This document shows positions 19,001-46,460 of a DNA stretch of 64,000 nt, piece by piece. Source of the stretch: Zarea fungicola (lineage: Eukaryota; Ascomycota; Sordariomycetes; Hypocreales; Cordycipitaceae); the NCBI GenBank assembly GCA_900169235.1, contig FWCC01000252.1, forward strand, positions 1-64,000, in the 5' to 3' direction. Under the pieces are notes generated by a model. That model did no database searches, was not told where the DNA came from, and saw only the letters and a list, made by a program, of their open reading frames with translations. The position numbers were made by a program, and so were the translations under genes. Each line of letters begins with the position of its first letter. Positions within the stretch are counted from its first letter, which is position 1.

Positions 19001-19642
19001 TTGCTGGATTGGCACCTGTGCGATCACTCGTCAACATTGGCAGTGGATTCAAAGACCTTGTTGAGATTCCCATTCGTGAGTATCAAAAGGATGGGCGTGT
19101 CATTCGAAGCATCTCCAAGGGCGCAGTCGCCTTTGCGCGCACGACGGGCACGGAGATTGTGAAGCTGGGAGCCAAGCTCGCTGTGGGCACCCAGTACGCG
19201 CTTCTTGGAGCAGAAGAAATGCTCACGGAGAAGCGAGCGGACGAGAGTGTCTGGGACGATGATGAACTCGACGAGGAAGAGAAGAAGCAGATTTCCCTTT
19301 ATGCCGACCAGCCGACCGGAGTGATTCAAGGTATCCGCGGAGGCTACCGCTCACTGGCGCGTGATGTGAACCTGGCACGAGACGCCATTATTGCAGTACC
19401 AGGCGAAGTCATGGAGAATGCGTCGGCGGCCGGAGTAGCCAAGGTGGTGTTGAAGCGGGCACCAACCATCATCTTCCGACCGGCCGTTGGCGTGACCAGG
19501 GTGATTGGGCAGACGCTGATGGGGGCCACGAATGCCATGGATCCCGATAACAGGAGGAGAATTGACGAGGTATGCTTTTATTTTCTGTGCTTGTTTGTAT
19601 TGATTTACTTGCTAACATGGTCTGTAGAAATACAAGCACTAA
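13036..19642 (+). CDS. ATG2: Autophagy-related protein 2 (ATG2)
   Basis: Three exons, 13036-13209, 13264-19569 and 19628-19642, encode about 2164 residues, normal for fungal ATG2. ATG2 is the rod-shaped bridge-like lipid-transfer protein that links the ER to the growing phagophore and works with ATG9 and the PROPPIN ATG18. The N-terminus is chorein-like ([20 protein letters not shown]... then the [12 protein letters not shown] strand region). The C-terminal region holds the conserved [20 protein letters not shown] segment, typical of fungal ATG2, and ends in KYKH after the last intron. Residues about 545-600 form a Glu/His/Asp-rich tract with an internal repeat, and about 245-275 contain a duplicated DLANSM block; both are probably disordered. 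This is a single-copy core gene, so it anchors the window to the conserved genome. Confidence 0.95.
14756..14892 (+). repeat. Acidic low-complexity repeat inside ATG2
   Basis: In-frame imperfect repeats of a GAGCATGGCCATGAGGATGA-like unit encode alternating Glu/His/Asp runs and then Glu-Pro repeats. The tract lies in the hydrophilic middle of ATG2 and is likely length-variable. Confidence 0.8.
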
Positions 19643-19686
19643 ATGTGACGCCAATGTGACGCCAATGTGACGCCAATGTGACGCCA
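19643..19686 (+). repeat. 11-bp tandem repeat after the ATG2 stop
   Basis: Four exact tandem copies of ATGTGACGCCA begin immediately after the ATG2 stop codon, in the 3' UTR. The microexon end and repeat are contiguous. Confidence 0.9.
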
Positions 19687-21310: not shown

Positions 21311-22384
21311 ATGTCGACCACAGACAACTTGGACGCTCAAGCAAACTCCTTGGCAGCCAACGTCCCTCTGTGCGCCACGAGCCCTGCCAGCAACAGTCCC
21401 AGTCTTGGCGCAAAGCATGACATGCGAATCAGCTCAGTTAGCGGTACCGGCCATACTGATGGTGTTCTGGATAGCCCTCCACCGTCAGCTATACACGCTT
21501 CAGCAGCACATTGCTGGAAGAAGCGGAAAGCCAATTGCTCTGAACTGCACCCCAGCGTCTCATGGTAAATAAAAAGAACACTTAATTAATGTACTTTTGC
21601 TTACTAGATTTTCTTTTTTTCTGCACATGTAGCGGCCCGGCAACCTCTCAACCGGATGATGATGAATTCGTTCGCAGGCTTCATCATTTTCCTAAGCGGG
21701 ATATATACATGCCCATACCGCAGCTTGAATTTGACTTTCGTATTGCTGTAAAGCTCGACTCAAAAGTAACGAGACCGCCGAATAGCAGTAAAGAGCTTAT
21801 TACTACGACGAGCGGTAAATGGTCCGGCTCCTTTGGCAAAGGTTGTGTTTTGGTATGCTCTCCTACGTTATACTACATCACTCATCAGTATATATTACCA
21901 AAACTAATTGCGGCAAATGGTTAGGCCGGTGGGTATGATCTGGCGCAAGCGCGTGGTCTGCGGCCGATCCGCATCCTAGAAGCCTCGTTTATTCTTCTCA
22001 CGGCTGACACAACCCCTGCTACGTACGTTGATCGTCCTGGGCTGATTCCTTTTTCTTCGTTGCCTTTTTTTTTTGCTAATGGCTATCAATAGCTTCGAAG
22101 TACGAACTCGGGGCGCTCTCTCTGGCGCAAGCCATGTGTTGGATACTCTACTGAGCCCTTTGGGTGGGAGAAATGTAGACCCCCGCGCGTACAGTTTTCG
22201 GATGTTTTGCACGCTCACGACACAAGATCACCGATATATTGAGCATCTCAATGCTGGGCTCTGGGTTGCTAGCGGGATCTGGAAGGAAGATGACATGATT
22301 ATTGAGTATGAAAACCTGCAATTGTTCCTGAACTTTCTTTTTTCTTGGCCGTGTCAAGAGAACTGTGCCTGGCTATGTAGCTGA
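21311..22384 (+). CDS. DUF3237-like protein, four exons
   Basis: Spliced model: 21311-21564, 21633-21852, 21925-22022 and 22093-22384, about 287 residues. The donors are GTAAAT, GTATGC and GTACGT, and frames join exactly. The first ~90 residues are Ser/Ala-rich and probably disordered. The rest resembles the small beta-barrel DUF3237 family: PQLEFDFRIAVKLDS, a GKWSGSFGKG turn, an AGGYDLAQ segment, ASFILLTADTTPATFEVRTRG, then RAYSFRMFCTLTTQDHRYI and NAGLWVASGIW near the end. The biochemical role of DUF3237 is not established. The extra C-terminal residues after EYENLQLF are unusual and may reflect an unspliced final intron. No cluster-1 promoter motif was seen upstream, so I leave it outside cluster 1. 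Confidence 0.55.
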
Positions 22385-22929: not shown

Positions 22930-23961
22930 CTAGCTTTGATTATAGTTAATCCTGACCAATAACTTCCCTGTAGTCTTTTGTTGCTCCAAGTTATCCTGCG
23001 CTTGCCCAAGCTCCTCTAACCGGTATACTTGATCGACATTCGCATGAACCGCTCCTGACTGTACAAGCTCCATTAGCTCTGTCGACCGCTGCACAAATTC
23101 GGCCTCTTCAGCCAGATAATTCGCCAACGTGGGCCGAACAAGCTTGACATTCTTCTTGCTCAGCTCCAAAATACGAAAGCCGTCCACCACACCGCTACTG
23201 TTACCATACGACACCAGCGTGCCCTTGCGGCGCGTACAGGCCAGGTCCGCCATAAACGTAGCCTTGCCGACGCCACTGAAGACGGCATGACAGCCTTTGC
23301 CCTCGGTGAGGTCCATAACTTGCTCCTCAACACTCTCCTCCCTGTACAAGATGACGTGGTCGCAGCCGTGCCCCCTCGCCACGGCTGCCTTTTCCCGCGT
23401 CGAGACTGTTCCGATCGCGGTCGCGCCGAGGTGCTTGCACATTTGCACCAGGAGACCACCTGTGCCGCCCGCAGCGGCCTGCACGAGGACCGTCTCCCCG
23501 GCGCGGACGTCGTAGGCGTCGCGCACCAGAGTCCACGCCGTGAGGCCCTGGAGCATGAGGGCTGCGCCGTGCTCGGTTGAGATGGCAGGCGGGAGCTTCA
23601 TCATGCTGCCGCCTGATGTCGGTACCGAAATGTACTCTGCCATTGTACCCTGGGCAAAGACGGCGACGCGGTCACCGACGGAGAGGCCACAGGAAGAGGG
23701 AACCGCGCTACCGGCCTGTACGATGATGCCTGCACCTTCACGGCCGGCGATAAAGGGCCGCGGGTGGACGGGGTAGACGCCTGTTCGCTGGTACACGTCT
23801 ACGAAGTTGATGCCGGCGTATTCCACCCGCACAAGGACATGGGAATCGCTGACGGAGGGGACAGGAATGTCGCATTCCAGGCGGAGAACAGATGAATCGC
23901 CGGGTTCATAAATTCGGACCCCTTTCATTGACGTCGGTATGTTGGGAGCTATGGACTTCAT
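22930..23961 (-). CDS. Zeta-crystallin/quinone-oxidoreductase-like MDR reductase
   Basis: Intronless 343-residue MDR protein. The GroES-like part has the quinone-reductase signature region YAGINFVDVYQRTGVYP and GREGAGIIVQAG. The nucleotide-binding part has VLVQAAAGGTGGLLVQMCKHLGA with the AAAGGTGGLL loop typical of NADPH:quinone reductases. It ends in TTGKLLVRI. No zinc ligands are visible. Family members reduce alpha,beta-unsaturated carbonyls or quinones with NADPH. It is divergent from the cluster regulator, and the shared intergenic region carries two CGG-N6-CCG sites plus a CGG-N5-CCG site. That places it in cluster 1, where it could supply the otherwise missing enoate reduction to 2-oxoadipate. 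That role is inference; the MDR assignment is firm. Confidence 0.9.
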   Translation of the reverse strand: MKSIAPNIPTSMKGVRIYEPGDSSVLRLECDIPVPSVSDSHVLVRVEYAGINFVDVYQRTGVYPVHPRPFIAGREGAGIIVQAGSAVPSSCGLSVGDRVAVFAQGTMAEYISVPTSGGSMMKLPPAISTEHGAALMLQGLTAWTLVRDAYDVRAGETVLVQAAAGGTGGLLVQMCKHLGATAIGTVSTREKAAVARGHGCDHVILYREESVEEQVMDLTEGKGCHAVFSGVGKATFMADLACTRRKGTLVSYGNSSGVVDGFRILELSKKNVKLVRPTLANYLAEEAEFVQRSTELMELVQSGAVHANVDQVYRLEELGQAQDNLEQQKTTGKLLVRINYNQS

Positions 23962-24244
23962 TTTTTTGGTCGCAGCCGGACAGTGTAAAGTGTCCCCTGA
24001 TGGTCGTGGCCGTGTTAGTGGATTGTCGGTGTTGGAGGCCCAGAGATGTATAGAAACGAACAGGTAGGAAAGTCAAACAGCGGGTAGTAGTATGATGCTT
24101 CTGTTGCAAACCAAAAACGGAAGAAATTTTTGTGTGTGCGTCTAGTTTTCTGGTTCTATTAAGAAGCTACATAAGCTGCAGTTCTCTGTTGGCTGGATGC
24201 ATAATAAACCAACTGGTTGCCCAGATTCGTCGACGCACGATTTT

Positions 24245-24286
24245 CGGACGGCTCCGAATGATGTCCGGAACTTCCGGATCGCTCCG
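24245..24286. promoter_or_regulatory. Three CGG/CCG inverted-repeat sites
   Basis: Within 42 bases lie CGGACGGCTCCG (24245-24256), a CGG-N5-CCG palindrome TCCGGAACTTCCGGA (24264-24278) and CGGATCGCTCCG (24275-24286). Two match CGGA-N4-TCCG exactly. They sit between the divergent MDR and Zn2Cys6 regulator genes and suggest autoregulation. Confidence 0.6.
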
Positions 24287-25076
24287 TAGCCCATGTAAAG
24301 GATATCAAAATCGATGTTCCCGAGCCGCAACAGGCAAAAAAGAAGGATTGGTGGGCTTGCGTAGCCGTCTGTCCTCTTTAGGCAACCTGAATTACTATCG
24401 CTAATGCGAAGCTCAGCCGTCAGCAGCGTATTTGCGCGCTGCAAGGACAAGAAATAGTCTACGAAGCTGTCAAAGAGTCAGCAGAGACGATTATTATTAT
24501 TTACAATACCTGCTTGTTAACCATTCAGTAGTTTCTAGTTCTTCGCTAATATAGTTGACAATATATGCCAAGGAGGCCAGGAAATATCCAGAATGAAGCC
24601 AATGTCGGCCTCCCACTTACAAGTCGAATAGCGCATCCCGCACAACAACCGGACCTACATTACAACATCTATACTATCTCATGCAGCAATAAGAATTTCG
24701 GCATCAAGTTTCATTTGGGCAGTTACTTTATATTTTATTAGTTTGATTTGACTTGATCTATCGAGACAATGGTGGCAGAATGATGCCTATGAGTGGGCAA
24801 TGGGGCTCAGTTATTAAATAGAAATTATTTTGGTTCTTACTCGTTTCACTAACCCCCAATAACGCCCCCATACCCCCGCTATGTTCCCCGCAAATGCAAT
24901 GGACGCTTATGCCAACTAGTTGACTGGCTTCTCCAGCTCCATAGCAGCTGTGGTTCTCACTTGTTGCATGGTACCACCGTTGGTACAAAGCCTCGCATTC
25001 GTAGAAGCTAATACCTGGGACGGTTCGCAGTTATCGCCTCCCATATCACGAGAAATATACTAGGATATCGTGGGTT

Positions 25077-27300
25077 ATGCAGGAGCGGCACAAAGTATGG
25101 CGAGCCTGCCAGCCATGTCGCCGCAAAAAGGTCAAATGCGATGGTGCGCAGCCGTGTTCCAGTTGCAATCGCACGCCGCTTGACTGCGCTTATGCAGATC
25201 CGGGAGACACTGTGAGAGTTCGTGATCCCGAGTAAGTCAAAGAGAATAGCTGGCTGCCGCAGTACGGTATCATGCTGAAAGGACTGGGACAGATATGTCA
25301 AGAGCTTGGAGAGCAGGCTGCACTCAATGCAGGTGCTGCTAAACCAAAACGAGAACAGAGCAGAGCAACCTCCAGCCACAGAACTGCAATACGACTCAGA
25401 TTTAAGCGCCCAAGCCAGTGGAGCGAGGAACCAGTCCCTAGATGACAGGTCTGGCACTGCAGCTGTTTCTGATAACCATGTATTCCAATCGCCTTTGCAA
25501 CCAGTCGACCGTGGCGCAAGTTTGCCAAGGAGCTGGGACTTGAGTCCCAATCAAGACCCAAATCATCAACTACCTCAGCAGCCAGCCCACAGCAATAGAG
25601 TCGATGGGGCAATTGATGTTGCTATACTCTCGGAGGAGGTGCGGTCTAGGCTCATCGAGCACTTTTATCAAGCCATCTTCCCAATCTTCCCAATTATTCC
25701 AAAATCATCCTTTACAAGGCAGCTCGAACAGTGTCAAGGGCAAGGGTTGACGGCATGTGCATTCCGTACAGTATATTACATGCTTTTAGCAGTGTCTGCA
25801 TCTGTCCTACCTGAAGTTGATGCTTTCTCTGGGCCGCTGGCGGCGAACGGATACAAGCCTTTTGACCTTGCCAAGGCACTTTACGCTTATGCCACCACTA
25901 CCCCGTCGGGATTCGATGGCGAGGAAGACAAAGCGAACATGAACGACGTCATCGCTCAAGGCCTCCGAAGCCTCTACCTCGTGGAGGAGGGCGAGGCAAC
26001 AAAGGCTTGGATAACAGCAGGCCACGCCATTAGGCAATACCAGGGCCTTGAGGCAAACCACTTTAGCGCAACTGACCTACAGCAGGGGGGCATTCGTCGC
26101 GCTCATCGCAACCTCTGGTGGTGTCTTTATATTCTAGACCGGTCCCTCTCCACTGCTCTTGGTAAACCGCTAGCCTTTGATGATGACGATTGTGACAGTA
26201 GCTTGTCCGACCTTCGCGACGGAACCTTGGCTGCCTCGGGTAACGATGACGCCGCGAGCCCGTGGTTCTCTGTTGTCGCTGATTTTCATGTTACCATGGC
26301 CAAAATATACACTTCTATACGGTCTATGCGCAAGGAAAACTCGCAAAACGGTGGTGGTAGCGATGAAAAAAAGGAAGCCTCAAGGCAACGTATTCGCCAG
26401 TATGACGCCGAGCTCCAAAAGTACTACATAACGCAGGTAATGCCAAAAATGCAAGGCAGTAATCAGCCAATCGCTCTGCAGACCATTGCCGTCTCGTCAT
26501 ACTACATTGGACTCGTCCTCCTTTATCGGACCTCGATTGAGAACTTCTCAGTCGATGAGCCTGATGCATTTTTGCGCTGCGCAAAGGCCGCGGTGGAATG
26601 CATCCGCGTCTCACCAGTCGTCATTGCCAACGTGCCCACCAGCCACTTTCTGGTCCAACAATGCAGGGCGATATACGCCAGCATGAAGGTTATCCTGCAC
26701 TGCATGCGCATGGCCCGCAACCCGGCCTTCACAGAGACTGCCTGGGGGATTGTGGAACAGGGCCTGGCCATGCTGCAGCGGACGAAGCTCAAATGGCCAG
26801 AGATCAAAAAGTACCAAGAGTCAGCCCTTGCCGACATGCAGAGCACGCAGCTCCAGCTTCAAAGGCACGCTGCCTTTTTTAAGGTATTTGATAATTTCGG
26901 AGCGGATGATAATCAAGAAATGTCGTTGCAGAGACCACCTGTGCTAGATCTGGGAAGCGCAGCTTCGACACCTATGCAAGACCAGCCTAGGGAACCGGAT
27001 AGCGTGCGGCGAGAGCCAGAGCCACAATTAGAGAATCAAACCTCAAGTTATGATGATCACGTCTCAAAAAAGAGACGAATAAATGAGTCTGAGAGACGTG
27101 AAAGCAGTACAACGGCTCTAACTCCTGAATCGCCAGTTACAGCTCCTTTCACAGAACCATGGCCGTTGGCCAATGATTTTCTTCTTGACTTCTCATCATT
27201 GTCGGACGCGACTCATCCGCCTACTCTGTTACATGATGATTCTTCATTTCTATCATCAATTGACTCTCTACTACAGCCGTCAGAAAAATGGCCGCCTTGA
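25077..27300 (+). CDS. Zn2Cys6 transcription factor of cluster 1
   Basis: Two exons, 25077-25231 and 25293-27300, give about 720 residues. Exon 1 encodes the complete binuclear zinc cluster: Cys11-x2-Cys14-x6-Cys21-x5-Cys27-x2-Cys30-x6-Cys37. A short coiled-coil-like linker (YVKSLESRLHSMQVLL) starts exon 2. The middle region (about residues 170-420) is a fungal_trans middle-homology domain with FYQAIFPIFPIIPKSSF, RRAHRNLWWCLYILDRSLSTALG and the acidic FDDDDCD. The Ser/Thr- and acid-rich C-terminus ends in LDFSSLSDA-like activation sequence. This architecture binds CGG triplets in pairs. CGG-N6-CCG sites occur in its own promoter and in each promoter of the neighbouring catabolic genes, so it is the likely pathway activator. 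Confidence 0.92.
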
Positions 27301-27459
27301 GAAGTTGATTTATCTATCACGCTTTGATCAGTTCGTTGTTGCGGAAAGTCGGCAGAGAATGAAGTGTCAAATTGAGTAGAGAGTACGAATAAATCACAGA
27401 AATCCCGCACTAGTTCCTATATAATATAATATCCCATCGATCCCTTGATTTCAATGCTT

Positions 27460-28202
27460 TTACAAGTTTTCGGTGAGATGAGGAGGAGCTACCACCCCAC
27501 ACACAGCGCACCGGCGCATGCCTTCGTTCTCCATCCACTTGTCAATTTCTTCCTTGAGCTGTGTTTCTATATCTCCACAGTAAAACGCCTTCTCTCTAAT
27601 AATTATAGACTTGCTGCCATGGACAGGTTTGTTTGCACAGTACCACCTCAGACGATCCACAGACGTGGAAGGACGCTTTGTTTCCATGACGAGGCCGATG
27701 GTATCTTTGAAGCGAATCGGAGAGTGGGGGACGTTACCTGTTTAACAACGAACCTGTTAATAGCTTATTAGGCTGACAAGGGGGGCGTCAATGGAACACT
27801 TCTACCTGGGAGAAGAAACGATGATCCCTCTGCAATGATGATGTCCCGAATTGTATCATTTTCCACTATGCGAAGAATCATGTCACCTTTTATCTGGAAG
27901 AACCATTCCTACGGAGCAATGGGTGGTTAGTAGATCTATTTAACAAATCAAATTGGATACTATACCTCGGTTTCATTGACTTCGGTCTCGTCAGCGAGTC
28001 TGCATTATCAGAGGCAAGACGACTTACTGTGGAAATCATTTCTTTTGTTCGGGCCGCCGACGGCCATTAACAGAAAGTCCTTCCCAGAATGTATGCAGAG
28101 GTTGTTTACAGGAGGCTGAAGTTTCCCTGAGTTTGCTTTCAACCATGCATTTAGAAAAGTAGGCTCTGGGATAAGAGTTGCGTTTTCAGTTGTGGTGCCC
28201 AT
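27460..28202 (-). CDS. BNA1: 3-hydroxyanthranilate 3,4-dioxygenase
   Basis: Four exons on the minus strand: 28202-28028, 27979-27966 (14 bases), 27908-27806 and 27737-27460, about 189 residues, normal for the family. The enzyme opens the ring of 3-hydroxyanthranilate with O2 to give 2-amino-3-carboxymuconate semialdehyde. Visible cupin landmarks are PPVNNLCIHSGKDFLLMAVG, GPNKRNDFHINETEEWFFQ (Fe ligands His and Glu), KGDMILRI, FLLPGNVPHSP (the third ligand His) and ETKRPSTSVDRLRWYC. Of the two CxxC metal-binding pairs known in bacterial/yeast enzymes, the first is incomplete (CANK) while the second (CAVC) remains. The tiny exon 2 uses an AAG acceptor, chosen because it restores the conserved HINETEEWF. 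Being clustered, this may be a catabolic paralogue of the NAD-pathway gene. It is divergent from the amidohydrolase. Confidence 0.88.
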
Positions 28203-28379
28203 CTTGCTTGGAGTGTTGTTTATGTCTGTGTAAATTTTATTTCTCCATGTATAGCATGAAACTGTATATCAAAATACAATTTTGCAATTGAAAATGCCTA
28301 CTTTTAGTCTCATTTTTGTCCACTTGTGAGAGAAAGGAGGGTCTTCTCGTGGCCGGACCTCAGCGTCACATGGCCGATG

Positions 28380-28391
28380 CGGATCGATCCG
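28380..28391. promoter_or_regulatory. CGG-N6-CCG site, perfect palindrome
   Basis: CGGATCGATCCG lies between the divergent dioxygenase (starts 28202, minus) and amidohydrolase (starts 28565, plus). It is the most symmetric of the six cluster-1 sites. Confidence 0.6.
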
Positions 28392-28564
28392 GTGTCAAGG
28401 AGAGGACTCGGGCGCATCCGATATGCCCGCGTAAGAATGCCGTATGCTAATCTCCTGTCAATGTGTTTCGTGTATTAAAGTATTTATGTTTACGAGATGA
28501 AGTTTTTCCCAGTAATTTCATCAGTGTTTTAACGGTGCGTCAGAGCGACATACAAGCAATAGAA

Positions 28565-29817
28565 ATGTCTCAATTAAGCACCATGGGCTATCAAACTGTA
28601 TTGGATACGGGTGGAAGCTGCTGCAGAAGCCCAGTCAACCAGCAGGGGCCGGTCAAACACATGAAAAGCCCGTCGGGAAAGTCCTTAAGAATCGACATGC
28701 ACACACATATTATGCCGCCATCGCTCCCAGACTTTTCTGACGCAGGAGAAACCGCCGAGGAATGGCTCAACATTCGGTCGCACGAAAGCACTGGAGAAGA
28801 CAAGTCGGTTGCTGGGCGAGTGGATATGTACGTCGGAGACCGCTTCTTCCGCACAGTAGAATCCAACCTACACGATCCAGCCATTCGCATCCGAGAGATG
28901 GATGAGTCCAATATTGACGTGCAGGTTCTAAGCACAGTCCCAATTCTTTTCGCATATGACAAACCTGCAGGTCCGGCCTCAAAGTTGGCTAGTTACCTCA
29001 ATGATCACATTGCGTCGGTCTGCAAGCAGCATCCTACACGATTTCTGGGTTTGGCGACGGTAGCTCTACAAGACGTTGATGGGGCCATCAAAGAACTTTG
29101 GCGCGCGAAAACGGTACTTGGTCTTCTTGGCGTCGAGATTGCGACCGAAATTCACGGGAAACGGTTGGACAGTCCTGATTTTGAACCATTTTGGTCAGCA
29201 TGCGAGGAATTGGATGCACCAATCTTCGTACATCCTTTGGGGTATGAGTACGAAGCCGAAAATAAAAACCGGTTTGGTTGTTATTGGTCTGCCTGGCTTG
29301 TGGGCATGTAAGTTCACTATCGCTCTTGACGTCGTTTATTTCCCAGATACTAAGTACTCTTCGCAGGCCCTGTGAGACTGCACTTGCATTACACGCAATT
29401 CTCTCCTCAGGTTTACTGGTGCGCCATCCAAAGTTGCGGTTCTGCTTTGCGCATGCCGGTGGCTCATACATTCCGCTGTTGGGACGAATACAGCATGGGT
29501 TTGATTGCAGACCCGATTTGGTTGCGCACAAAGCAGAGGGACTATCTCCAACCGAGTTTCTCTCTTCCAGGCAGAACAATATATGGATTGATGGTCTTGT
29601 TCATGATCCTGATCTTTTACAGTATCTGTGCAAGAAGATTGGCTCAAACAGAGTGCTCATGGGTAGCGATTACCCTTTTCCTTTGGGTGAGATGCCTACT
29701 CCGGGAAATCTGATTGCGCATAATGAACAGCTAGCAAGGTCTTTTTCGGAAGAGGAGCGCAATCAGATGCTTGGAGGCAATGTACTTGAGTTTTTAGGTA
29801 TAGACAGTGTCTTATAG
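28565..29817 (+). CDS. ACMS-decarboxylase-like amidohydrolase
   Basis: Two exons, 28565-29307 and 29367-29817, encode about 397 residues of the amidohydrolase_2 superfamily. It resembles 2-amino-3-carboxymuconate-6-semialdehyde decarboxylase, which removes CO2 from the ring-opened product of 3-hydroxyanthranilate dioxygenase and so diverts flux from quinolinate/NAD. Metal-site landmarks are DMHTHIMPP (His46, His48), DAPIFVHPLG, CFAHAGGSYIPLLGRIQHG and the late Asp in LMGSDYPFPLG. An in-frame ATG lies 34 codons upstream, but the chosen start is closer to the family's beginning; about 40 residues still precede the domain. Its divergence from the dioxygenase across one CGG-N6-CCG site supports the assignment. 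Related decarboxylases on other aromatic acids cannot be excluded from sequence alone. Confidence 0.85.
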
Positions 29818-30029
29818 ATAAACAGAAAAGCTTTGAAAAATGACTGCACACAAGTGGACACGGAATAAACATCTTAGAGACGCCATTCCTTAGCTGGCAC
29901 TGGAAAGGCTTTGTAATAGAACGGGGTTTCAAAATCCTAATTCATTTGCCATGCTGCAAAGTCTGTTAGACTCAAAGACTTTTTGGTAACTAGGCCGTCT
30001 CGTATTCTGCCCTGCTCTCGCCACCGAAT

Positions 30030-30041
30030 CGGAGGCATCCG
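30030..30041. promoter_or_regulatory. CGG-N6-CCG site upstream of the ALDH
   Basis: CGGAGGCATCCG, extended by flanking T and A into TCGGAGGCATCCGA, lies about 150 bases upstream of the aldehyde dehydrogenase start and matches the cluster consensus CGGA-N4-TCCG. Confidence 0.6.
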
Positions 30042-30191
30042 AGAGCAGCATAATCCAGGCCGGCCCCACCGCATTGCCAATAAATGATGGCATACGCATG
30101 AGAATTCGGTGTTACAACTGATCAGATGCGATAGATTGACTTCGAGGGCATATACAATAAGACGACAGCTTACTAGAGCATTGCGGAAATC

Positions 30192-31905
30192 ATGGACACA
30201 AGCTCAACACTGCTCAGCCATACGACGCAGGCCGAGGCTGCAAAGTACTTGGCTAGTCAGCCAGGAAATCGTATCAGCCTTCAAAACTTCATCAACGGTG
30301 AATACAGAACTCATAGTATTCCCGAGAGCTGGATTCACTCGCACAACCCACATTCTGCACAAATTGTCGCAAATGTACCCCGCAGCTCGCATGACGACGT
30401 CGACGCTGCCATTGACTCTGCGCAATCCGCTTTCCCTGCATGGTCCGAGACCTCTCGTGAACACCGGTCAGGAATTTTGTTGAATATAGCTGCCATGATT
30501 GAACAGCACAAAGAAGCATTCGCCATCTGGGAAAGCCTGGACCAGGGCAAGCCTCTGGCCAGGGCGAGAGTCGAAGTTGACAGGGCAATTTCTAATTTTC
30601 GGTCTGGCTACCTCTGCATTGACTTGTTCTTGCATGCTCACCAACTTTTAAAGCATATAATGCTGACTCAGTGTGATGAATAGCTACTTTGCGACGTACA
30701 TCTTGCATATCCAAGGTGCCGTACGCTACGTGGATTCTCAATCCGTCATGACATATGAGCATCGTTCGCCGGCGGGAATCTTTGCACTCATTACCCCCTG
30801 GAATATGCCACTATATCTCCTGACGTGGAAAATTGCTCCATGTCTTGCCTTTGGCTGTGTGGCGGTAGCAAAGCCGAGCGAAGTAACGAGCATAACTGCA
30901 TTTAGTAAGTTGAGTTGTTGCGACCCTGCCAGTACTTGCTTCACCGAGCCTTCTCATGAATTTCTCGAAAAAGAAATTCAAAAAGAAGAATGAAAAAGAA
31001 GACTAGCATGGCTCACATTTACTACAGTGCTTGGGCAAATCTTTCGACGAGCTGGCGTTCCCTCCGGCGTCGTGAACCTGGTGTTTGGTGATGGGCAGGG
31101 AGTCGGCTCAGCTCTGGTTTCTTCTCCCCGCATTGCAGGTGTTTCGTTCACAGGCAGCGTAGCGACTGGTGTTTGTATTCGCAGAGACACTGCTGCACAA
31201 ATTGGGAAGCACTTATCCCTTGAACTCGGTGGCAAGAATCCCACCCTGATATTTGATGATGTTGATCTTGGGAAGGTCGTCCCTCTGGCAGCCCAAGCGG
31301 CCTTTGAGAATACTGGACAAATTTGCCTCTGTGGCTCACGCATTTACGTACAACAAAATTTGTACAATGAGTTTGTGCGACAATTTACAGAATTTGTCGC
31401 AGAGACATATCAGTGTGGCAAAACAGTCGGCCCAGTTGTCTCCGAGGCTCATTATCACAAAATTCGCAGCTACCTTGATCTTGCACGTCAAGAGGCGGCA
31501 ACCTTTTCCATGGGAGAGGTACCGCAAGAGGAGCCAGATAAAGGGTATTGGATAAAGCCAACTATTCTAACGAATGTGAAGCAGAGCAGCGCCATTATCC
31601 AAGAGGAAATATTTGGACCGGTTGTTACCATCTCCGTATTTGATACGGAAGAGGAGGCTATAGCCCTAGCCAACGATAATTCTAATGGGCTTTCAAGCGT
31701 GCTAATGACTACGGATGGCTCTCGCATGCGTCGCGTCGGAGAGCGTCTGCAGGCCGGTTTGGTGTGGGTGAACTGCTGGCTGGTCAGAGACTTTGGTTCA
31801 GGTTTTGGTGGTGTAAAGGAATCCGGAATGGGCCGGGAAGGAGGGGATCATAGCCGGGACGTGTTCACTAACTTGCATACCATTCACCTGCCAGCAAAAT
31901 GGTAA
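30192..31905 (+). CDS. Aldehyde dehydrogenase, 2-aminomuconate-semialdehyde type
   Basis: Three exons, 30192-30601, 30684-30904 and 31028-31905, give about 502 residues, the typical ALDH length. Landmarks are [19 protein letters not shown] and KPSEVT (NAD binding), [10 protein letters not shown], the general-base Glu in [10 protein letters not shown] (about Glu276), the catalytic Cys in [11 protein letters not shown] (about Cys310), EEIFGPVV, and [14 protein letters not shown]. The enzyme oxidises an aldehyde with NAD+. Its position next to the ACMSD-like and RidA genes argues for 2-aminomuconate 6-semialdehyde oxidation to 2-aminomuconate, and the INGEYRTH start and the GMGREGG end resemble that subgroup. 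Substrate assignment is context-based. The first donor (GTCTGG) is weak but keeps frame and restores the expected RYFA segment. Confidence 0.88.
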
Positions 31906-31928
31906 CAAAAGCTGATATGATGCTGTAC

Positions 31929-31983
31929 CGGATGCTCCGTGAGGACGGAAGGTGGAGCGTTCCTGCCGGCTCGGAAGCCTCCG
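31929..31983. promoter_or_regulatory. CGG/CCG sites upstream of the RidA gene
   Basis: CGGAAGCCTCCG (31972-31983) matches CGGA-N4-TCCG. A CGG-N5-CCG variant, CGGATGCTCCG, lies at 31929-31939. Both fall in the short gap between the ALDH stop and the RidA-like start. Confidence 0.6.
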
Positions 31984-32126
31984 GGCGGCGTGGGGGCAAT
32001 CGGGAATAGATAGCAGCTTATCCTACTCAGCTACTTTTCCCAATAACTACCCAAAGTATTCAATTTCCTATGCTGTTCTTTTCAGTATCTGGATTTCTGT
32101 ATCAGAGCTAAAACCATACGCACGAA

Positions 32127-32615
32127 ATGGCCAATACTAAGCAACAGAACAGCATAGCCTATTTCCGCCCGGCAACGCAGGCTCAAGGGCTCGCCAATTA
32201 TCCTCATGCTCGAATGATCCCAGCCGGCCCCGGATCATATACAATCTATGTTTCTGGCACTTCATCTCGCCGCGGCGATGGGACGTTTGTAGGGGCGGAA
32301 GCGACAGAAAACAGCGACGGCTCGTCAACTCTCCGCCTCGATGTGCAGAAACAAACCGAAGCAGTGCTCTTCAACATTGATGCGATACTTCAAGGCATTA
32401 CTGACGGAAAGGCCAACATTCACAACGTAGTTGACGCTACAGTATTCCTTACCAACATTAGCGGAGACTACAACGGAATGAATGCGGCCTGGAATAGTGT
32501 CTGGCCAGACAGAGCAACCGCGCCAGCGAGGACAACGGTCGAGGTGCGCAAGTTGCCACGGGATGAGATTTTGGTTGAAATAAAGTGTACCGCATATATA
32601 TCTCATTATGCATGA
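32127..32615 (+). CDS. RidA-family protein, 2-aminomuconate-deaminase-like
   Basis: Intronless 162-residue protein of the RidA/YjgF/Rid superfamily. Landmarks are RPATQAQGLANYPHARMIPAG, YVSGTSSRRGDGT, KQTEAVLFNIDAILQ, VVDATVFLTNISGDYNGMNAAW, and the family signature APARTTVEVRKLPRDEILVEI with the conserved Arg. RidA proteins hydrolyse enamines/imines. The bacterial 2-aminomuconate deaminases of nitrobenzene and aminophenol meta-cleavage pathways belong to this fold, share this somewhat longer N-terminus, and release ammonia to give 4-oxalocrotonate. Its position right after the ALDH, with a CGG-N6-CCG site in front, supports that reaction here. Confidence 0.88.
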   Translation: MANTKQQNSIAYFRPATQAQGLANYPHARMIPAGPGSYTIYVSGTSSRRGDGTFVGAEATENSDGSSTLRLDVQKQTEAVLFNIDAILQGITDGKANIHNVVDATVFLTNISGDYNGMNAAWNSVWPDRATAPARTTVEVRKLPRDEILVEIKCTAYISHYA

Positions 32616-32962
32616 GGTCATGCTGAGCTGAGCCTATTTTGTCAAGTTGAAGGCGTGTAACCCGGGAGGACCTTTGCTACGGTTTGGAGGTTATTAATTG
32701 AACAATACAACAAGTTCCAATCGCACGAAATCTAATCTAGGTGGCATGATCCGTTTCTATTCCACAGCAGCAACTCGTAACGTGTGGCTTTACGAATCAT
32801 GTTCTTCTTACTGAGCAATAGAAAGCATCCGCTCTGCTATAAACAGTGATTCTCTAGGTGGCATGCTAAGTATATGCACCAATACAGTATTCGATAAATT
32901 GAAACAAGGTTATCAATGTGACCGAGAAAACGTCCCTTGTTTATTACTTATCATTTGCTCAA

Positions 32963-34535
32963 CTAATTTTGTCGGTGCGTTCTAATGGCATGGGAAGCTA
33001 CAAAATGGATGGCAACGATTGGAAGTAAGGAGGTTACAGCAACAATTCCTACCATTAAGCCTGCTGCTCGCCCCAGACCCAACTTGGAGAACATGAGCGG
33101 AAAGTAGAAAGGGCCAGTCTGTAACACGAAATTAGTGAGCTGTTCCATACAACATCTCTTGAGTGCGACTTACGAATCCGTAAACCTGGCGGCACATGCT
33201 GATGAAGACACCTGCGTCGGTTGATCTTTCCCCACTGCTTTCTATCGCAAAAGTTGAGAGGATAGTAGTTTGCATCTGATTCCCAAAACTGGCAATAGCA
33301 GCACCTATGCATAGAGTCACGTTCCATGAGGTAGCTTTCTGAAGTTGGAACCCCCAAACTAACATTCCAACAGTAAAGGTGAGGTAGCCAGCATAGAAGA
33401 ACCAGAGTCGATCAGCCGGGTAACCATGCCCCCTGGACTCACGGCGCCGCCGAGATAACCAGTCCGAAGCTGGCCCGCCAAACTGCTCTCCTAGTAAGCA
33501 GCCTATAATTATGGCAATATATTGCAAGCCAATCTGCTGTGCATCAAAGTGAAACCTCTGGCCGTAGCTAATGGGCAATTCGACGATCAGGGCAATGTTT
33601 CCATAGCAGAAGAATATGGATTGGGCCAAAGTGGTTACTAGCACGCGGGGATACCAGATCAACGATAATGGAGCCAAAAAGTCGTGAGCCTGGATTCGCT
33701 TGGAGCTAATTCGTCGCGGGATCATTTTGCGCAGACGTCTTGTCACCTCTCCTCCACTGGATGCATTGTAGATTGTTTCGTCGCCAAGTGCAAGATATGC
33801 CAACAACTGGCAGAAGTTGATGATTCCAAAAATCCAAAAGATCCATTCGACACCGGCATGTCTGACGACGAAGCCCATGAGGAACGGGCCTGTAGGGGTT
33901 CCAACCACGATCATCAAGGTCCACCAGCCAATCTTCTTCCCACGCTCACCTGGATCGCACAGCTCGGTTACTACGCCACTGCCGATTCCACTTGGGGGAG
34001 ATATGAGAATGGCTGTCAACACGCGCGTGGCCATCTGACTGCCAAAAGTGGTGCAACGGGCACCACCAATATTGCAAGCCATACTCCCAAGGACCGAAAG
34101 CAGACACACAGGGAATCGACCGTAAACATTAGTGATTGGTCGCCAGAACAGAGGACCGAGTCCGAGAGCCAATATCTAAAGCATCACATGATTAGCGATT
34201 GGAGAGTACGGCGAGCCCGAGTCGCTTACCTGAAACGACGTGAGATAGCTAGCAGTTGGCACCGAAACATTGTAACTCTCTGCAAGCTGATCAAAAGCAG
34301 GGATTATTCCGGCAGCCATAAAGGTGCTCATCATAGAGTGGAATGCAATCATGATGATCTGAGCATTCTTCTTCCATAGCGGCCAGTTCCGCGGATTACT
34401 CGGCGACGTATCGGGGCTTTTCGATGCATCGCTCTTCGGGACAGTTCGTTCTACCTCATCTAGGGACGGTACATCAATGTGCTCCATTTTAAGTGATGTG
34501 TCCAAAGCGGATTTTTTTGTCATGACCATATCCAT
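32963..34535 (-). CDS. MFS transporter of cluster 1
   Basis: Three exons on the minus strand, 34535-34230, 34175-33174 and 33118-32963, all phase 0, give about 487 residues. An N-terminal cytosolic tail (with SNPRNWPLWKK, typical of fungal MFS proteins) is followed by about 12 hydrophobic segments. The loop NVYGRFPVCLLSVLG corresponds to the MFS motif between TM2 and TM3, and a charged central loop with RRLRKMIPRR separates the halves. It probably moves an aromatic or organic acid across the plasma membrane; import of the pathway substrate is the simplest reading, but direction and substrate are unknown. It is divergent from the HglS-like gene, with a CGG-N6-CCG site between them. Confidence 0.88.
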
Positions 34536-34672
34536 GATTAAACTGTATGCATGTTTGATTTGTCCAAGACAGAGGCTTTTGAGACTGTAGGCTACATATG
34601 GTTATATATGGTTCTTTGGATATACTTATTCGTAGCTACACCAAAACGACGGTACTCCGTTTAGTGCATTTG

Positions 34673-34684
34673 CGGACCGTTCCG
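34673..34684. promoter_or_regulatory. CGG-N6-CCG site between transporter and HglS-like gene
   Basis: CGGACCGTTCCG matches CGGA-N4-TCCG. A CGG-N4-CCG variant lies just upstream at 34650-34659. The site is 138 bases from the transporter start and about 550 bases from the dioxygenase/decarboxylase start. Confidence 0.6.
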
Positions 34685-35238
34685 GCGGTTTGCCTTCAAG
34701 TACTCTGCCCGCCCAACAGCAGGGCAAGGAGCCATCTTCGGACCCTACCGCGATGCTGGGTATTTCTTTTTTTAAAATAAACTACCAACATTAACAATAT
34801 TAACAATCAATTACTCAGATAGGTTATAAATTTGCCTACATCATGATGTATTTGAGAAATTCACGGGAAAGACAATACCAATGCCTTCAAGATCTCAGTT
34901 CCGTAGTTGCTTTGTGCTGATGCTTCCAGGAGGTTCCTACAGTCTACTTATTTTTACATCCCACGTATTTGTAGCTCTTCTTTGCAACTTTACCCGTGGA
35001 TAAGAAAATTCACTAGTCCATGGAGAGTTGATGCGGTCACATTTGCCAAGTCAGCGGAACCTTCGGAGTAGACCGAGCCCCTGACAAACCTCTCGTACTG
35101 TGGCCACTCATATCTCGCTAGTTAGTGCTTCTTATACAAGTAATCTGTCAATCTGGGTTTAATTTACCAATACTTCTCCAAAGTAGTTCCCGGTAATTCT
35201 TTTGCAATACATCTTTCATTACTTACGAACGCACAATC

Positions 35239-36675
35239 ATGGCTGACCCGGCTTCAAAATCCATGCTGCAATATGTAGCCAGCTCGCACCTTCGCAGTGA
35301 ATTTGCTGCCTCTATGTCACAAATGTATAAGATGGAGGTTCCTCTATATGCCGATTTAATCGAAATTGTTCAAACGATTAATGCAGATCTGCTTGCCTCG
35401 CAGAGCCTAACTACCTTGCAACGACTAAGTGCGGAGAGACATGGCGCCATCCGCCTCGGTACACCCCAGGAACTTTATACTGTTGGTCGCATCTTTAAGA
35501 TTTTAGATATGCACGCTGTTGGGTATTACGACTTATCTGTTGCTGGACTCCCTATGCATGCCACGGCGTTTCGGCCAACGAGTGAGTCGGGTCTGGAGGA
35601 GAACTCATTCCGCGTCTTTACAACACTTGTCCGCCCCGAGCTGCTTGCCCCTAAAGCCCGTGAACTCTCACAAGCTCTCCTTGAACGACGCCAAATATTC
35701 TCTGCTGCGCTTATGGATATCCTTAATATCGCCAACTCTCAGTCAGATCGATTAACCAAGGTCCAGGCAGCCATCTTCATCCGCGAGGCACTGCATACCT
35801 TTAGCTGGCAGCCTATGGCCTCATCTACCCTTAAGGAATATGAAATTCTAAGAGAAGAGCATCCAATTCTGGCTGATATTGCCTGCTTTAAGACTGCGCA
35901 CATTAACCACCTGACGCCGCGGACGCTAGATATTTCACTAGCACAGGAGGCAATGGTCAGGCGCGGCATGCAAGCGAAGGATCGTATTGAAGGCCCTCCG
36001 CCAAGGTCATGTCCCATCCTCCTCCGACAAACAAGTTTCATGGCTCTCAGAGAGCCAATTGGCTTCCTCGCCGATAGCCACAACAGCAGCAGCTCAATGG
36101 TGGTGCCCTCCATTGTGCCCTCCACGCACACGGCTCGGTTTGGCGAGATTGAGCAACGCGGAGCGGCACTCACGCAGGCCGGTCGCAATTTATACGACGC
36201 ATTGTTGTCCAAGAGTGTAGAGCTGTCAAATGGTCTCGGTCCGCACGAGGCGGATATATGTACAGCGCAAGTCTTTACGGCTTTCCCAGATACGTGGGAA
36301 TCTCTGCGAGCGCAGAACCTGATCTTCTGTCGATATAAATTGTTAAAGAAGCCGCCACAGCGGCCGGTATTTGCAGAGACCTATAAAGATTTTCTCAGCC
36401 AGCTAATTGCAGAGGGTTACGTGGAGGCATCGCCAATCACATACGAGGACTTTTTACCATTCTCCGCTGCTGGTATTTTCCGGTCCAATCTTAAAGAGAC
36501 GAAGTCTAGGGGGTATTTAGGCCTAAATGGTCCAAAGCCCGATCAGGCAGGCCTGGAGAGAGCATTGGGTGTCTCCCTGCTCGACGCCGATTCATGGTAT
36601 GAGGATATGCAGACGGCTAGTCTCTGTGCTCTTGGGAACGACCTTGGGCTATCTGTTAAATGTCCGACTTGGTAA
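35239..36675 (+). CDS. 2-oxoadipate dioxygenase/decarboxylase (HglS/YdcJ, DUF1338)
   Basis: Intronless 478-residue protein that follows the DUF1338 family end to end. Landmarks are MYKMEVPLYADLIEIV, SAERHGAIRLG (His68), MHAVGYYDLSVAGLPMHATAFRP, FKTAHINHLTPRTLDI (His224), EGPPPRSCPILLRQTSF, HTARFGEIEQRGAALT (Glu303/305), and ITYEDFLPFSAAGIFRSNL. Pseudomonas HglS uses two His and one Glu as Fe(II) ligands at nearly the same positions. It converts 2-oxoadipate with O2 to D-2-hydroxyglutarate and two CO2 in lysine degradation. Here it closes cluster 1, where 2-oxoadipate is the expected end of the aminomuconate branch. The family call is strong; the physiological substrate is inferred from the family and context. 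Confidence 0.92.
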   Translation: MADPASKSMLQYVASSHLRSEFAASMSQMYKMEVPLYADLIEIVQTINADLLASQSLTTLQRLSAERHGAIRLGTPQELYTVGRIFKILDMHAVGYYDLSVAGLPMHATAFRPTSESGLEENSFRVFTTLVRPELLAPKARELSQALLERRQIFSAALMDILNIANSQSDRLTKVQAAIFIREALHTFSWQPMASSTLKEYEILREEHPILADIACFKTAHINHLTPRTLDISLAQEAMVRRGMQAKDRIEGPPPRSCPILLRQTSFMALREPIGFLADSHNSSSSMVVPSIVPSTHTARFGEIEQRGAALTQAGRNLYDALLSKSVELSNGLGPHEADICTAQVFTAFPDTWESLRAQNLIFCRYKLLKKPPQRPVFAETYKDFLSQLIAEGYVEASPITYEDFLPFSAAGIFRSNLKETKSRGYLGLNGPKPDQAGLERALGVSLLDADSWYEDMQTASLCALGNDLGLSVKCPTW

Positions 36676-39141: not shown

Positions 39142-40014
39142 TCACATGGACAGCCTCAGCTTCAGCTTCTCGCCCCCAACAATCTCCTCTCGCCGAGACA
39201 CCAGCTCCTCCATGTCCCAATTAACACTCACAAATCGTCCTCCAAGCCATTCCCGTCTCTCTGCCGTCAGCCACGTCACGGTATCCGCCGCCAGTGCCAG
39301 AGAGTCCACCAGCATCGAATGCGTGTGCTTCGGCATCCCCAGCCCCATCTCCGTCAGAATGTTGCCCGGGTGCACCGCAATCGCCACGAGACCCTGCTCC
39401 TTGTATTCAAAGCTCAGAGCCTCGGTGAGCCGGATCATGGCCGCTTTGGACCCGCCGTATGCCGATGCGCCGAATCGTGTATACAGGCCGCCCCGCGAGG
39501 CAATGTTGATAATCGTCCGCGTCGTGCTCTGCAGCACCATGGGCAGGAACGCGTGCACAGCCAGATATGTCCCCTTGAGATTCACCTCCCATGTCCTCCA
39601 CCAGTCCTGCCTGTCTGTGTCTCCGACAGCCTTTGCTTCCTCGAGGCGGCCCGCATTGTTCACGAGAATGTCAATCGCCGACACGTGCTCCCGGACTTGC
39701 TGGACCGCGGCGTCCATCTGCTCCTCTGAGCTGACATCGAGCGAAAGAGCAATTGCCTTGGTGGGTATCTTGGTCTCGGCAGAAACCGACTGCACGTCCT
39801 CCAGCAGGCTGTCGAGGCTGGATCGTGCAGCTAGAATGAGAGTCCCTGCCCCCGCTCGCGCAAAGGCCAGAGCTGTCTGCCGGCCAATCCCCTTGGATGC
39901 TCCGGTAATCAACACTGTCTTCCCCCGGTGATGGGACTGCGCAATATATCGATACGTATCGTGATGAACGGTACTAGTAAAATGGTCCAAGTATGCGTAG
40001 CTGCCCGAAGCCAT
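39142..40014 (-). CDS. Short-chain dehydrogenase/reductase
   Basis: Intronless 290-residue classical SDR. The cofactor motif TGASKGIG lies at about residues 37-44, the NNAG motif at 120-123, and the catalytic Ser174, Tyr187 and Lys191 in a SAYGGSK context. A PGNILTEMG-like loop follows the active site. It would oxidise or reduce a hydroxyl/keto group using NAD(P)(H). The substrate is unknown. It is oriented the same way as the epoxide-hydrolase-like and FAD-monooxygenase genes further right, so it could be the left edge of cluster 2, but no shared regulatory site was identified. Confidence 0.9.
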   Translation of the reverse strand: MASGSYAYLDHFTSTVHHDTYRYIAQSHHRGKTVLITGASKGIGRQTALAFARAGAGTLILAARSSLDSLLEDVQSVSAETKIPTKAIALSLDVSSEEQMDAAVQQVREHVSAIDILVNNAGRLEEAKAVGDTDRQDWWRTWEVNLKGTYLAVHAFLPMVLQSTTRTIINIASRGGLYTRFGASAYGGSKAAMIRLTEALSFEYKEQGLVAIAVHPGNILTEMGLGMPKHTHSMLVDSLALAADTVTWLTAERREWLGGRFVSVNWDMEELVSRREEIVGGEKLKLRLSM

Positions 40015-40238
40015 GTCTGTTCATGTATTCCCGTACTGAAACTTGATTGATGTTGTTATTTTTCCCGGCCTCCAAACCTGCGGGCCAGCTAGCTGGTAAC
40101 ATTGGTCATACACATATATATATGCGTATTCAATACGACACACGACAAAAAGCATTCACGTGAAGTGGATGCATATATTCCTGAGGCCACAACACTCCTC
40201 TACCAGTCCCACTAACAAAGATTTAATTAACCTCATAT

Positions 40239-40598
40239 TTAAAGGTTTTTAAATAGCGGCAGACTGAAAACGACTTTGCCTTTTCCATTCTCAGTCATCG
40301 TGGTTGTCATTGCCTGTGCTGGTGTAGGCTGGTCCAGCCCGTTGCCCATTTTGGCTTGCCGGACAGAACCCCTCGAGTACCCCTCGAGTGCCCAGTCAAT
40401 CAATGACCATTGACCCTGGCGGCTGGCCTGCAAGTCGATTTGCGCAATGGGGCGATCGAGGGGCTCGCCGCATGGGACTGCCGGACTCGCCACCCCTGCG
40501 TGGGCATCATTATTGCGGGCTCCATCGGCCGAGAAACCATTATACAAGGAAGAAAATTGACCATGAATACGAAAGCGGCGTGCAAGGGAAACTGACAA
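40239..40598 (-). pseudogene. Possible 3' relic of an MDR dehydrogenase
   Basis: The C-terminal part of this frame (WALEGYSRGSVRQAKMGNG, then ENGKGKVVFSL) resembles the end of medium-chain alcohol dehydrogenases. The upstream portion of such an enzyme is missing or scrambled in all minus-strand frames up to 40813. The resemblance is short, so it may be coincidence. Confidence 0.2.
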
Positions 40599-40813
40599 CC
40601 TACGGTATTCTGCGACGCGATGGAAGACTGGTAAGCTACCGTTTTGGCCTCGCTACTGGCACACTACCGAAATGTAGATTTGCGGCGAGAAGGGCAGGCA
40701 CAGCGACAAAGCAGACAAAATCGAGCATATACGATGGATATTGCAACAAAGCAACAACAGCATTAAACGGCATTCTCTTCTTAATTCCGGGAGCCATGGG
40801 CAAGCTCCTCTCA

Positions 40814-41872: not shown

Positions 41873-42384
41873 ACTTCAGTGCTGCTTTGAAGGCGTAACG
41901 GTAGAGAGGAATGCTGGGATTGGGTCATGAATGGCAATGTGGCCACGCTCATTATATAGCTTCATGGCCAAACTCAGTACGCCATGAATGTTCTAATACT
42001 AAGGAAATGGCCGTAAGGTATCATCGCGTCGGTTGGTAATACGCCGTGGTGGGACACCAACATTATTCATCCTTGAGGCCAGTCCCATACTAACCTTGCC
42101 AGCAATGCCTCGGGCGGAGGTAGCGATCAAAGGCATCCCTATTTCCATGCCATGGACGCCTTGATTCCAATAAGCCTACGACTCAGGACCCTCCCACGGC
42201 CGCAACTAGGTTAGCGCGTAAGCACTTGTCCGTCTGGCATCAAAATGTACGGACTAGCAATTACCGTTACCACTTACGAGGAACGGCACTTTGACGCTCT
42301 GGAAGGCACCAATTTAAAACTACCTGGATCGGCAATTTCACTTTGCATCAATTAATCAATTCTTTACACGGGAAAGGATAAAGG
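41873..42384. other. Intergenic region
   Basis: Promoter of the hydrolase and 3' end of the monooxygenase. No gene or repeat seen. Confidence 0.4.
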
Positions 42385-46402: not shown

Positions 46403-46460
46403 GGTGCTGTTGGATAACGCGTTTCGTGGGTACTAAACTTGTTTTATCTCTACTGGCTCT

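Follow-up and report, generated by a model that had tools for sequence, protein, structure and literature searches.

What does the breakdown of 3-hydroxyanthranilate lead to in fungi? The question is raised by a gene cluster of Zarea fungicola within the 64,000 nucleotides of genomic DNA analysed here (contig FWCC01000252.1; this whole stretch is called the window). A fungal 3-hydroxyanthranilate catabolic cluster was described in 2021 by Martins et al. (PMC7842363); its core is present in Aspergillus, Fusarium, Metarhizium and Penicillium, its upregulation has been reported, and the fate of the product beyond 2-oxo-3-hexenedioate was left open (PMC7842363). In the window, the same core (3HAO, ACMSD, an AMSDH-like ALDH and a RidA-family protein, all adjacent) stands with an MDR-family reductase, a putative 2-oxoadipate dioxygenase/decarboxylase (HGLS, DUF1338 family), a Zn2Cys6 regulator and an MFS transporter. 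We consider it rather probable that these genes make up one Zn2Cys6 regulon degrading 3-hydroxyanthranilate to D-2-hydroxyglutarate, with MDR as the 2-aminomuconate/2-oxo-3-hexenedioate reductase, a reading that rests on sequence comparison. The cluster thus belongs to a known kind: the core is not new, and the ending, MDR and HGLS, is what this locus adds.

An eight-gene cluster with a predicted route to 2-hydroxyglutarate

The cluster lies at 22.9-36.7 kb of the contig (C271 of a 43.1-Mb, 456-contig assembly). All eight exon models were clean, with GT..AG introns and intact reading frames, and the genes follow in this order:

22930..23961, minus strand: MDR reductase, single exon, 343 aa; labelled quinone oxidoreductase in other genomes; assigned from family, co-location and clade
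25077..27300, plus strand: Zn2Cys6 transcription factor; exons 25077-25231 and 25293-27300
27460..28202, minus strand: 3HAO, 3-hydroxyanthranilate 3,4-dioxygenase; exons 28202-28028, 27979-27966, 27908-27806 and 27737-27460
28565..29817, plus strand: ACMSD; exons 28565-29307 and 29367-29817
30192..31905, plus strand: ALDH, 2-aminomuconate semialdehyde dehydrogenase (AMSDH)-like; exons 30192-30601, 30684-30904 and 31028-31905
32127..32615, plus strand: RidA-family protein, 2-aminomuconate deaminase-like; single exon
32963..34535, minus strand: MFS transporter, 487 aa; exons 34535-34230, 34175-33174 and 33118-32963
35239..36675, plus strand: HGLS (DUF1338), 2-oxoadipate dioxygenase/decarboxylase-like; single exon, 478 aa

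In the proposed route, 3HAO would open the ring of 3-hydroxyanthranilate and ACMSD would decarboxylate the product ahead of its cyclisation to quinolinate. ALDH would then oxidise 2-aminomuconate semialdehyde to 2-aminomuconate, which the RidA protein would deaminate to 2-oxo-3-hexenedioate (4-oxalocrotonate). MDR, with NAD(P)H, would reduce the C=C bond of 2-oxo-3-hexenedioate to yield 2-oxoadipate, or might alternatively act on 2-aminomuconate itself, and HGLS would turn 2-oxoadipate and O2 into D-2-hydroxyglutarate and CO2. A 2-hydroxyglutarate dehydrogenase encoded outside the cluster would complete the conversion to 2-oxoglutarate, and the cluster's own Zn2Cys6 protein would control the genes through predicted CGG-N6-CCG sites. 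We infer all enzyme activities, the order of RidA and MDR, binding of the element by the regulator, and the substrate and direction of the transporter. The eight genes and family calls of the original prediction, which was made from the letters of the window, were borne out by the clean models and by profile and solved-structure matches; its order of chemistry was right, and the 2-oxoadipate/2-hydroxyglutarate ending it proposed is plausible. It also knew of no described fungal cluster of this composition. Since the core was published in 2021 (PMC7842363), the composition is only partly new: the statement holds for the MDR/HGLS ending, which we did not find in print in open-licence PMC literature, and fails for the first four enzymes.

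The reductase recurs with ACMSD in other Ascomycota

MDR matches ADH_zinc_N (2e-21) and is of a QOR/Zta1-like family. Its best solved structure is the quinone oxidoreductase 3qwa, which we take to be yeast Zta1, and the 2-haloacrylate reductase 1wly is listed among its relatives in the structure search. We searched with the ACMSD, MDR and HGLS proteins (best 120 matches each, with one contig, the longest, per protein cluster), and 7 of the 119 non-window ACMSD matches listed are on a contig whose length also occurs for an MDR match. The two genes are two locus tags apart in Neoarthrinium moseri (MDR JX265_002280, ACMSD JX265_002282) and four apart in Penicillium mononematosum (MDR N7519_009419, ACMSD N7519_009423), and contigs of 9,882 and 43,780 bases occur in both listings, their small size placing the two genes close together provided that equal lengths denote one contig. 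For Pleurostoma (452 kb), Xylariales PMI_506 (867 kb) and Capronia coronata (4.4 Mb), MDR and ACMSD were found on the same scaffold only. All seven of these MDRs and that of the window fall into one 40-row clade (100/100) of a 48-row tree. This clade leaves out the genome's own QOR-like paralogues on C57 and C161 (45 and 41% identical to the window MDR), which were entered in the tree as partial frames, and it has 18 clade-specific positions, for example Ser229, Arg244 and Arg292. The nearest relative among the matches listed is a Lecanicillium protein (75%).

Several points weigh against this reading of MDR. That a contig is shared was inferred from equal size, to which a matching organism name adds in five of the seven cases. 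Three of the contigs that lack informative tags are large (0.45-4.4 Mb). The listed MDR and ACMSD lie on separate contigs in Cryphonectria parasitica, Discula destructiva and Xylogone PMI_703; they do so too in Cytospora mali, Exophiala oligosperma and Meristemomyces frigidus, for which the two matches may come from different strains. No dicarboxylate-binding signature was testable in MDR. As for chance coincidence, the same size comparison of HGLS with ACMSD and MDR gave no further untitled contig in common beyond the window's own; accidental equal contig sizes are therefore rare.

A shared promoter element links the cluster genes

CGG-N6-CCG is a site type typical of Zn2Cys6 regulators. Of 19 such sites in the window, nine are inside the 2.8 kb of cluster promoters, with at least one in each of the five regions (no strand assigned):

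24245..24286: two sites upstream of MDR, about -284 and -314 from the ATG
28380..28420: two sites in the divergent 3HAO/ACMSD promoter
30030..30041: one site upstream of ALDH (-151)
31972..31983: one site upstream of RidA (-144)
34673..35075: three sites in the divergent MFS/HGLS promoter, starting at 34673, 34739 and 35064

The rate across the window predicts 0.8 promoter sites, and CGG-N6-CCG ranked first of 1024 inverted half-site models (64 triplets x spacers 0-15). Dinucleotide shuffles of the promoters (n = 2000) gave a mean of 0.30 sites and a maximum of 4, and none hit all five regions (0/2000). A stricter form, CGGRN4TCCG, was defined after the sites had been inspected. It has 7 forward-strand matches in the 64 kb, every one in the cluster promoters, and reading the reverse strand adds one at 54,499; in the 43.1 Mb there are 727 forward matches, and 1520 for the pattern written backwards. 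Strict sites lie ~138 to 314 bp 5' of the ATG of MDR, 3HAO, ACMSD, ALDH, RidA and MFS. Among the MFS/HGLS sites only 34673 is strict, and the site nearest to HGLS (35,064; -164) fits the looser pattern. Two results temper this picture: in 1 of 200 shuffles, one or another of the 1024 models attained 9-fold or higher enrichment across all five promoters, and the strict site closest to HGLS is 555 bp from the HGLS ATG and nearer to MFS. The regulator itself matched Fungal_trans (1.5e-7), and its N-terminal CX2CX6CX5CX2CX6C motif was recognised by eye. The possibility that MDR is a chance neighbour was rejected on its co-location with ACMSD and its promoter sites.

Elsewhere in the genome, the control and pathway loci (145 kb) contained 4 strict matches on either strand, about the chance expectation. 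A strict match at C175:426,935 (CGGGCAAATCCG) lies ~131 bp upstream of the ATG of the best-scoring IDO, and another is inside a formamidase-like open reading frame (ORF) on C341. The C175 site is only a lead, being within chance.

The main rival to a reductase of 2-oxo-3-hexenedioate is that MDR is an ordinary quinone oxidoreductase, which would reduce the quinone-imines of autoxidised 3-hydroxyanthranilate while 2-oxo-3-hexenedioate is handled elsewhere. The QOR/Zta1-like family fits this, autoxidation of 3-hydroxyanthranilate is established chemistry, and co-location of MDR with ACMSD would be explained as well. The promoter element, however, is also found at HGLS, which needs a source of 2-oxoadipate. 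In the excerpted account of Pseudomonas putida HglS, 2-oxoadipate was the sole substrate among the 2-oxoacids tested (PMC7286885); since HGLS shares the element and HglS acts on 2-oxoadipate, something must make 2-oxoadipate. Moreover, the genome gave no TIGR03218 match for a 4-oxalocrotonate decarboxylase, a bacterial family of which a distant fungal homologue could escape such a search; a bacterial-style ending through this enzyme was rejected on the same result. The name of 1wly also suggests that the MDR family can reduce enoic acids. We regard the quinone-imine explanation as unlikely, and retain MDR as the candidate reductase.

HGLS appears to be a recruited duplicate

HGLS matches its family at 2e-136, and its best solved structure is HglS (6w1g). 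For that enzyme, the excerpted account names a His-His-Glu metal triad, a 2-oxoadipate-binding Arg and Val402 (PMC7286885). Alignment with P. putida HglS (PF07063) showed that the window HGLS retains the triad and the Arg, Arg74. The genome has three HGLS genes, one of them in the cluster. A 41-row tree placed the window HGLS beside the copy on C308 as its sister (row P0002; 100/100; 75% identical). The pair sits inside a group of 14 rows, in which the named fungi are Cordyceps, Akanthomyces, Lecanicillium, Beauveria and Aphanocladium (Cordycipitaceae). The window HGLS is therefore a lineage-specific duplicate, on a longer branch than the C308 copy (0.29 vs 0.084).

Other observations count against its proposed role. 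Val402 of HglS is Phe in the window HGLS, and also in the C308 copy, and its 485.9 bits fall short of the NF049974 cut-off of 550, below NCBIfam equivalog level, by a threshold that was set for prokaryotic genomes. Only two other genomes have HGLS and ACMSD on a single listed contig; there the genes are 359 and 722 tags apart, so HGLS is no general cluster member. The cross-genome synteny check proposed with the original prediction placed MDR with ACMSD in some other Ascomycota and HGLS apart from it in these two genomes.

Could HGLS, perhaps with MFS, be a dispersed duplicate of the C308 gene that stands by chance beside a complete cluster of core and MDR? Its position outside the cluster in those two genomes, its 75% identity to the C308 copy and a strict site that suits MFS better than HGLS would all fit. 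Against this, the 703-bp MFS/HGLS promoter has three CGG-N6-CCG sites vs ~0.1 expected (outside the cluster, 8 in ~50 kb), the HGLS substrate is an exact fit to the pathway, and the lineage-specific copy landed at exactly this locus. A chance neighbour is made less likely by these points, short of being dismissed, and we judge it improbable. Membership of HGLS in the cluster, as originally predicted, is supported by the promoter element and the duplication, and narrowed to what looks like a lineage-specific addition. Promoter element and co-location together support MDR as a predicted member, and element and duplication support HGLS less strongly. On the wider proposal, that the MDR clade is the missing reductase gene of tryptophan catabolism and a general member of the fungal cluster, to whose regulon a duplicated HGLS was recruited here, we see about an even chance.

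2-Oxoadipate is also an intermediate of fungal lysine biosynthesis, and the cluster could in principle end there, building lysine from tryptophan carbon with HGLS as an overflow valve. The two other HGLS genes would be available for catabolism. The eight genes include no aminotransferase, however, and removal of 2-oxoadipate by HGLS is irreversible, and we hold this explanation to be very unlikely. On C161 (44,000-73,900), the second HGLS paralogue (41% identity) is accompanied by a DAO-type FAD oxidoreductase, an ALDH and a regulator of fungal type; the region also holds a PALP enzyme, two aminotransferases and, ~20 kb further, an MDR. It resembles a catabolic cluster of the pipecolate/lysine type with HGLS as its last step. 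The excerpted HglS account describes lysine catabolism in fungi as barely characterised (PMC7286885).

The core enzymes resemble those of the 3-hydroxyanthranilate pathway

For 3HAO, three stretches of the window exceeded the PF06052 cut-off. The best solved structure is 1zvf, which we take to be yeast 3HAO; DFHINETEEWF and NVPHSPIR align with it, and what we take to be the Fe ligands and the substrate Arg are retained. The cluster 3HAO lacks one C-terminal metal-site Cys present in 1zvf (RWYCANK vs RWYCSHC). The other 3HAO gene of the genome, on C117, shares 49% identity with the cluster gene over 135 residues. ACMSD matched Amidohydro_2 at 4.5e-20 and 3.7e-12 (one value per exon), with 4ofc/2wm1, presumably human ACMSD, as best solved structures; it scored 252 bits against human ACMSD and 86 against 2,3-dihydroxybenzoate decarboxylase, the nearest other decarboxylase. 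The presumed metal-ligand set (HTH close to the start, H223, H277 and D349) is retained. It is the single ACMSD of this type in the genome, where four further matches are only 25-36% identical. The RidA protein (family match 2e-18) was likewise the one match in the genome search, and its nearest solved structure is 2-aminomuconate deaminase 6izh (1.3e-17; next best 2.8e-9). The gathering of these single ACMSD and RidA genes at one locus, with one of two 3HAO and one of three HGLS genes, goes beyond chance.

ALDH (family match 5e-93) is less clear, and here the structure scores speak against the assignment: aminoaldehyde/betaine-aldehyde dehydrogenases, which we take to be from plants, stand narrowly above AMSDH 7bzv and 4i1w. 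ALDH has Arg in EVDR and NCWLVRDF contexts, like 7bzv, where the plant enzymes compared differ; we take this Arg pair to be substrate-binding in AMSDH and to separate it from betaine-aldehyde dehydrogenase. The suggested homology check on each protein thus placed ACMSD, RidA and 3HAO nearest to true pathway enzymes and left ALDH ambiguous by score.

These enzymes also bear on whether the true output is quinolinate or picolinate, as a chelator or for NAD control, with the later genes accessory. The cluster 3HAO, an additional gene of its kind placed next to ACMSD, could divert flux, and 2-aminomuconate semialdehyde can give picolinate without an enzyme (PMC7842363). The AMSDH-like ALDH and RidA, under the same promoter element, would nevertheless consume the picolinate precursor, which makes such an output the least probable of the explanations weighed.

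The window ACMSD sits, in a 52-row tree, on a long branch together with proteins of Penicillium, Aspergillus sydowii, Pochonia and Arthrobotrys, and the 120 best matches listed include no named fungus of the Cordyceps group. Horizontal transfer or loss in relatives would account for this placement.

Genomic context and surroundings

The absence of kynureninase and IDO from the cluster had suggested supply from central metabolism or import. The cluster indeed encodes neither, but three kynureninase genes occur elsewhere in the genome, each no more than ~3 kb from an IDO gene (C192:68.9-72.4 kb, C301:392.6-397.0 kb and C341:16.7-21.3 kb), and tryptophan is therefore a ready source of 3-hydroxyanthranilate. 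ORFs resembling kynurenine formamidase by eye lie near the pairs on C192 and C341. At the other end of the route, FAD-oxidase_C proteins, a family that we take to include D-2-hydroxyglutarate dehydrogenases, gave six matches at five places in the genome.

The cluster is bordered on the left by the autophagy gene ATG2 (open frame 13,264-19,656) and on the right by a family-8 glycosyltransferase gene (from 37,090). DUF3237 fragments or a gene lie left of MDR (21,586-22,384, plus strand). To the right (39,145-49,611) are an SDR, an alpha/beta hydrolase, a FAD_binding_3 hydroxylase, a class IV aminotransferase and a methyltransferase, possibly a separate secondary-metabolism region. The MFS transporter matched its family at 8e-26.

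Comparison with known systems

The cluster of Martins et al. has the same 3HAO, ACMSD, AMSDH and RidA-family putative 2-aminomuconate deaminase as the window, whereas its account (section 8 and the Fig. 5 legend) makes no mention of an MDR reductase, HGLS or a Zn2Cys6 regulator. For the published fungal pathway, a concrete ending would come from a 2-oxoadipate oxygenase and a repeatedly co-located reductase that have one promoter element in common. The excerpted texts of PMC12899273 and PMC13151070 name no gene for the reductase step, and the Fig. 4 legend of the former draws 'oxalocrotonate reductase' without one. In open-licence PMC literature we found no gene for a 2-aminomuconate/oxalocrotonate reductase. 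MDR is thus a candidate for a step drawn without a gene in these reviews, as excerpted. FAMeDB counts 3-hydroxyanthranilate among eight fungal ring-opening intermediates, and the excerpted main text mentions neither HGLS, DUF1338 nor 2-oxoadipate (PMC13094099). Compared with the yeast Zta1/QOR quinone oxidoreductases, the window MDR shares the family but sits in a separate Pezizomycotina clade, with the two paralogues in the genome closer to QOR.

The ACMSD branch, put down to animals in the original prediction, is not animal only. Among the best 80 of 582 confirmed bacterial or archaeal ACMSD loci (flanks up to 10 kb, often shorter), the core partners recur as in the window (3HAO in 33/80, ALDH in 19/80, RidA in 14/80), whereas HGLS was found in 0/80 and an MDR match in 1/80 (28% identity). 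Prokaryotic clusters were accordingly set aside as support for the MDR/HGLS ending, there being none such in these 80 stretches, many of them short. At Microbulbifer locus L104 (5,071-14,534), where six ORFs were scanned, 3HAO, ACMSD, ALDH and RidA stand with kynureninase, a FAD_binding_3 hydroxylase, a TPP-dependent enzyme and an SDR; the last two are perhaps another pathway ending.

HglS of D-lysine catabolism belongs to the same family as the window HGLS and, in the excerpted account, has the same His-His-Glu triad and 2-oxoadipate-binding Arg (PMC7286885); unlike it, the window HGLS adjoins a ring-cleavage pathway and has Phe for Val402. It would be a gene apparently recruited into a catabolic cluster via duplication. 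The animal route from kynurenine to glutarate likewise runs through 3HAO, ACMSD and AMSDH and then reduction to 2-oxoadipate. Animals convert 2-oxoadipate to glutaryl-CoA, whereas in the window HGLS would give 2-hydroxyglutarate; if so, this single locus would encode a route that needs no CoA to turn a tryptophan-derived aromatic into 2-hydroxyglutarate, linking tryptophan and lysine breakdown.

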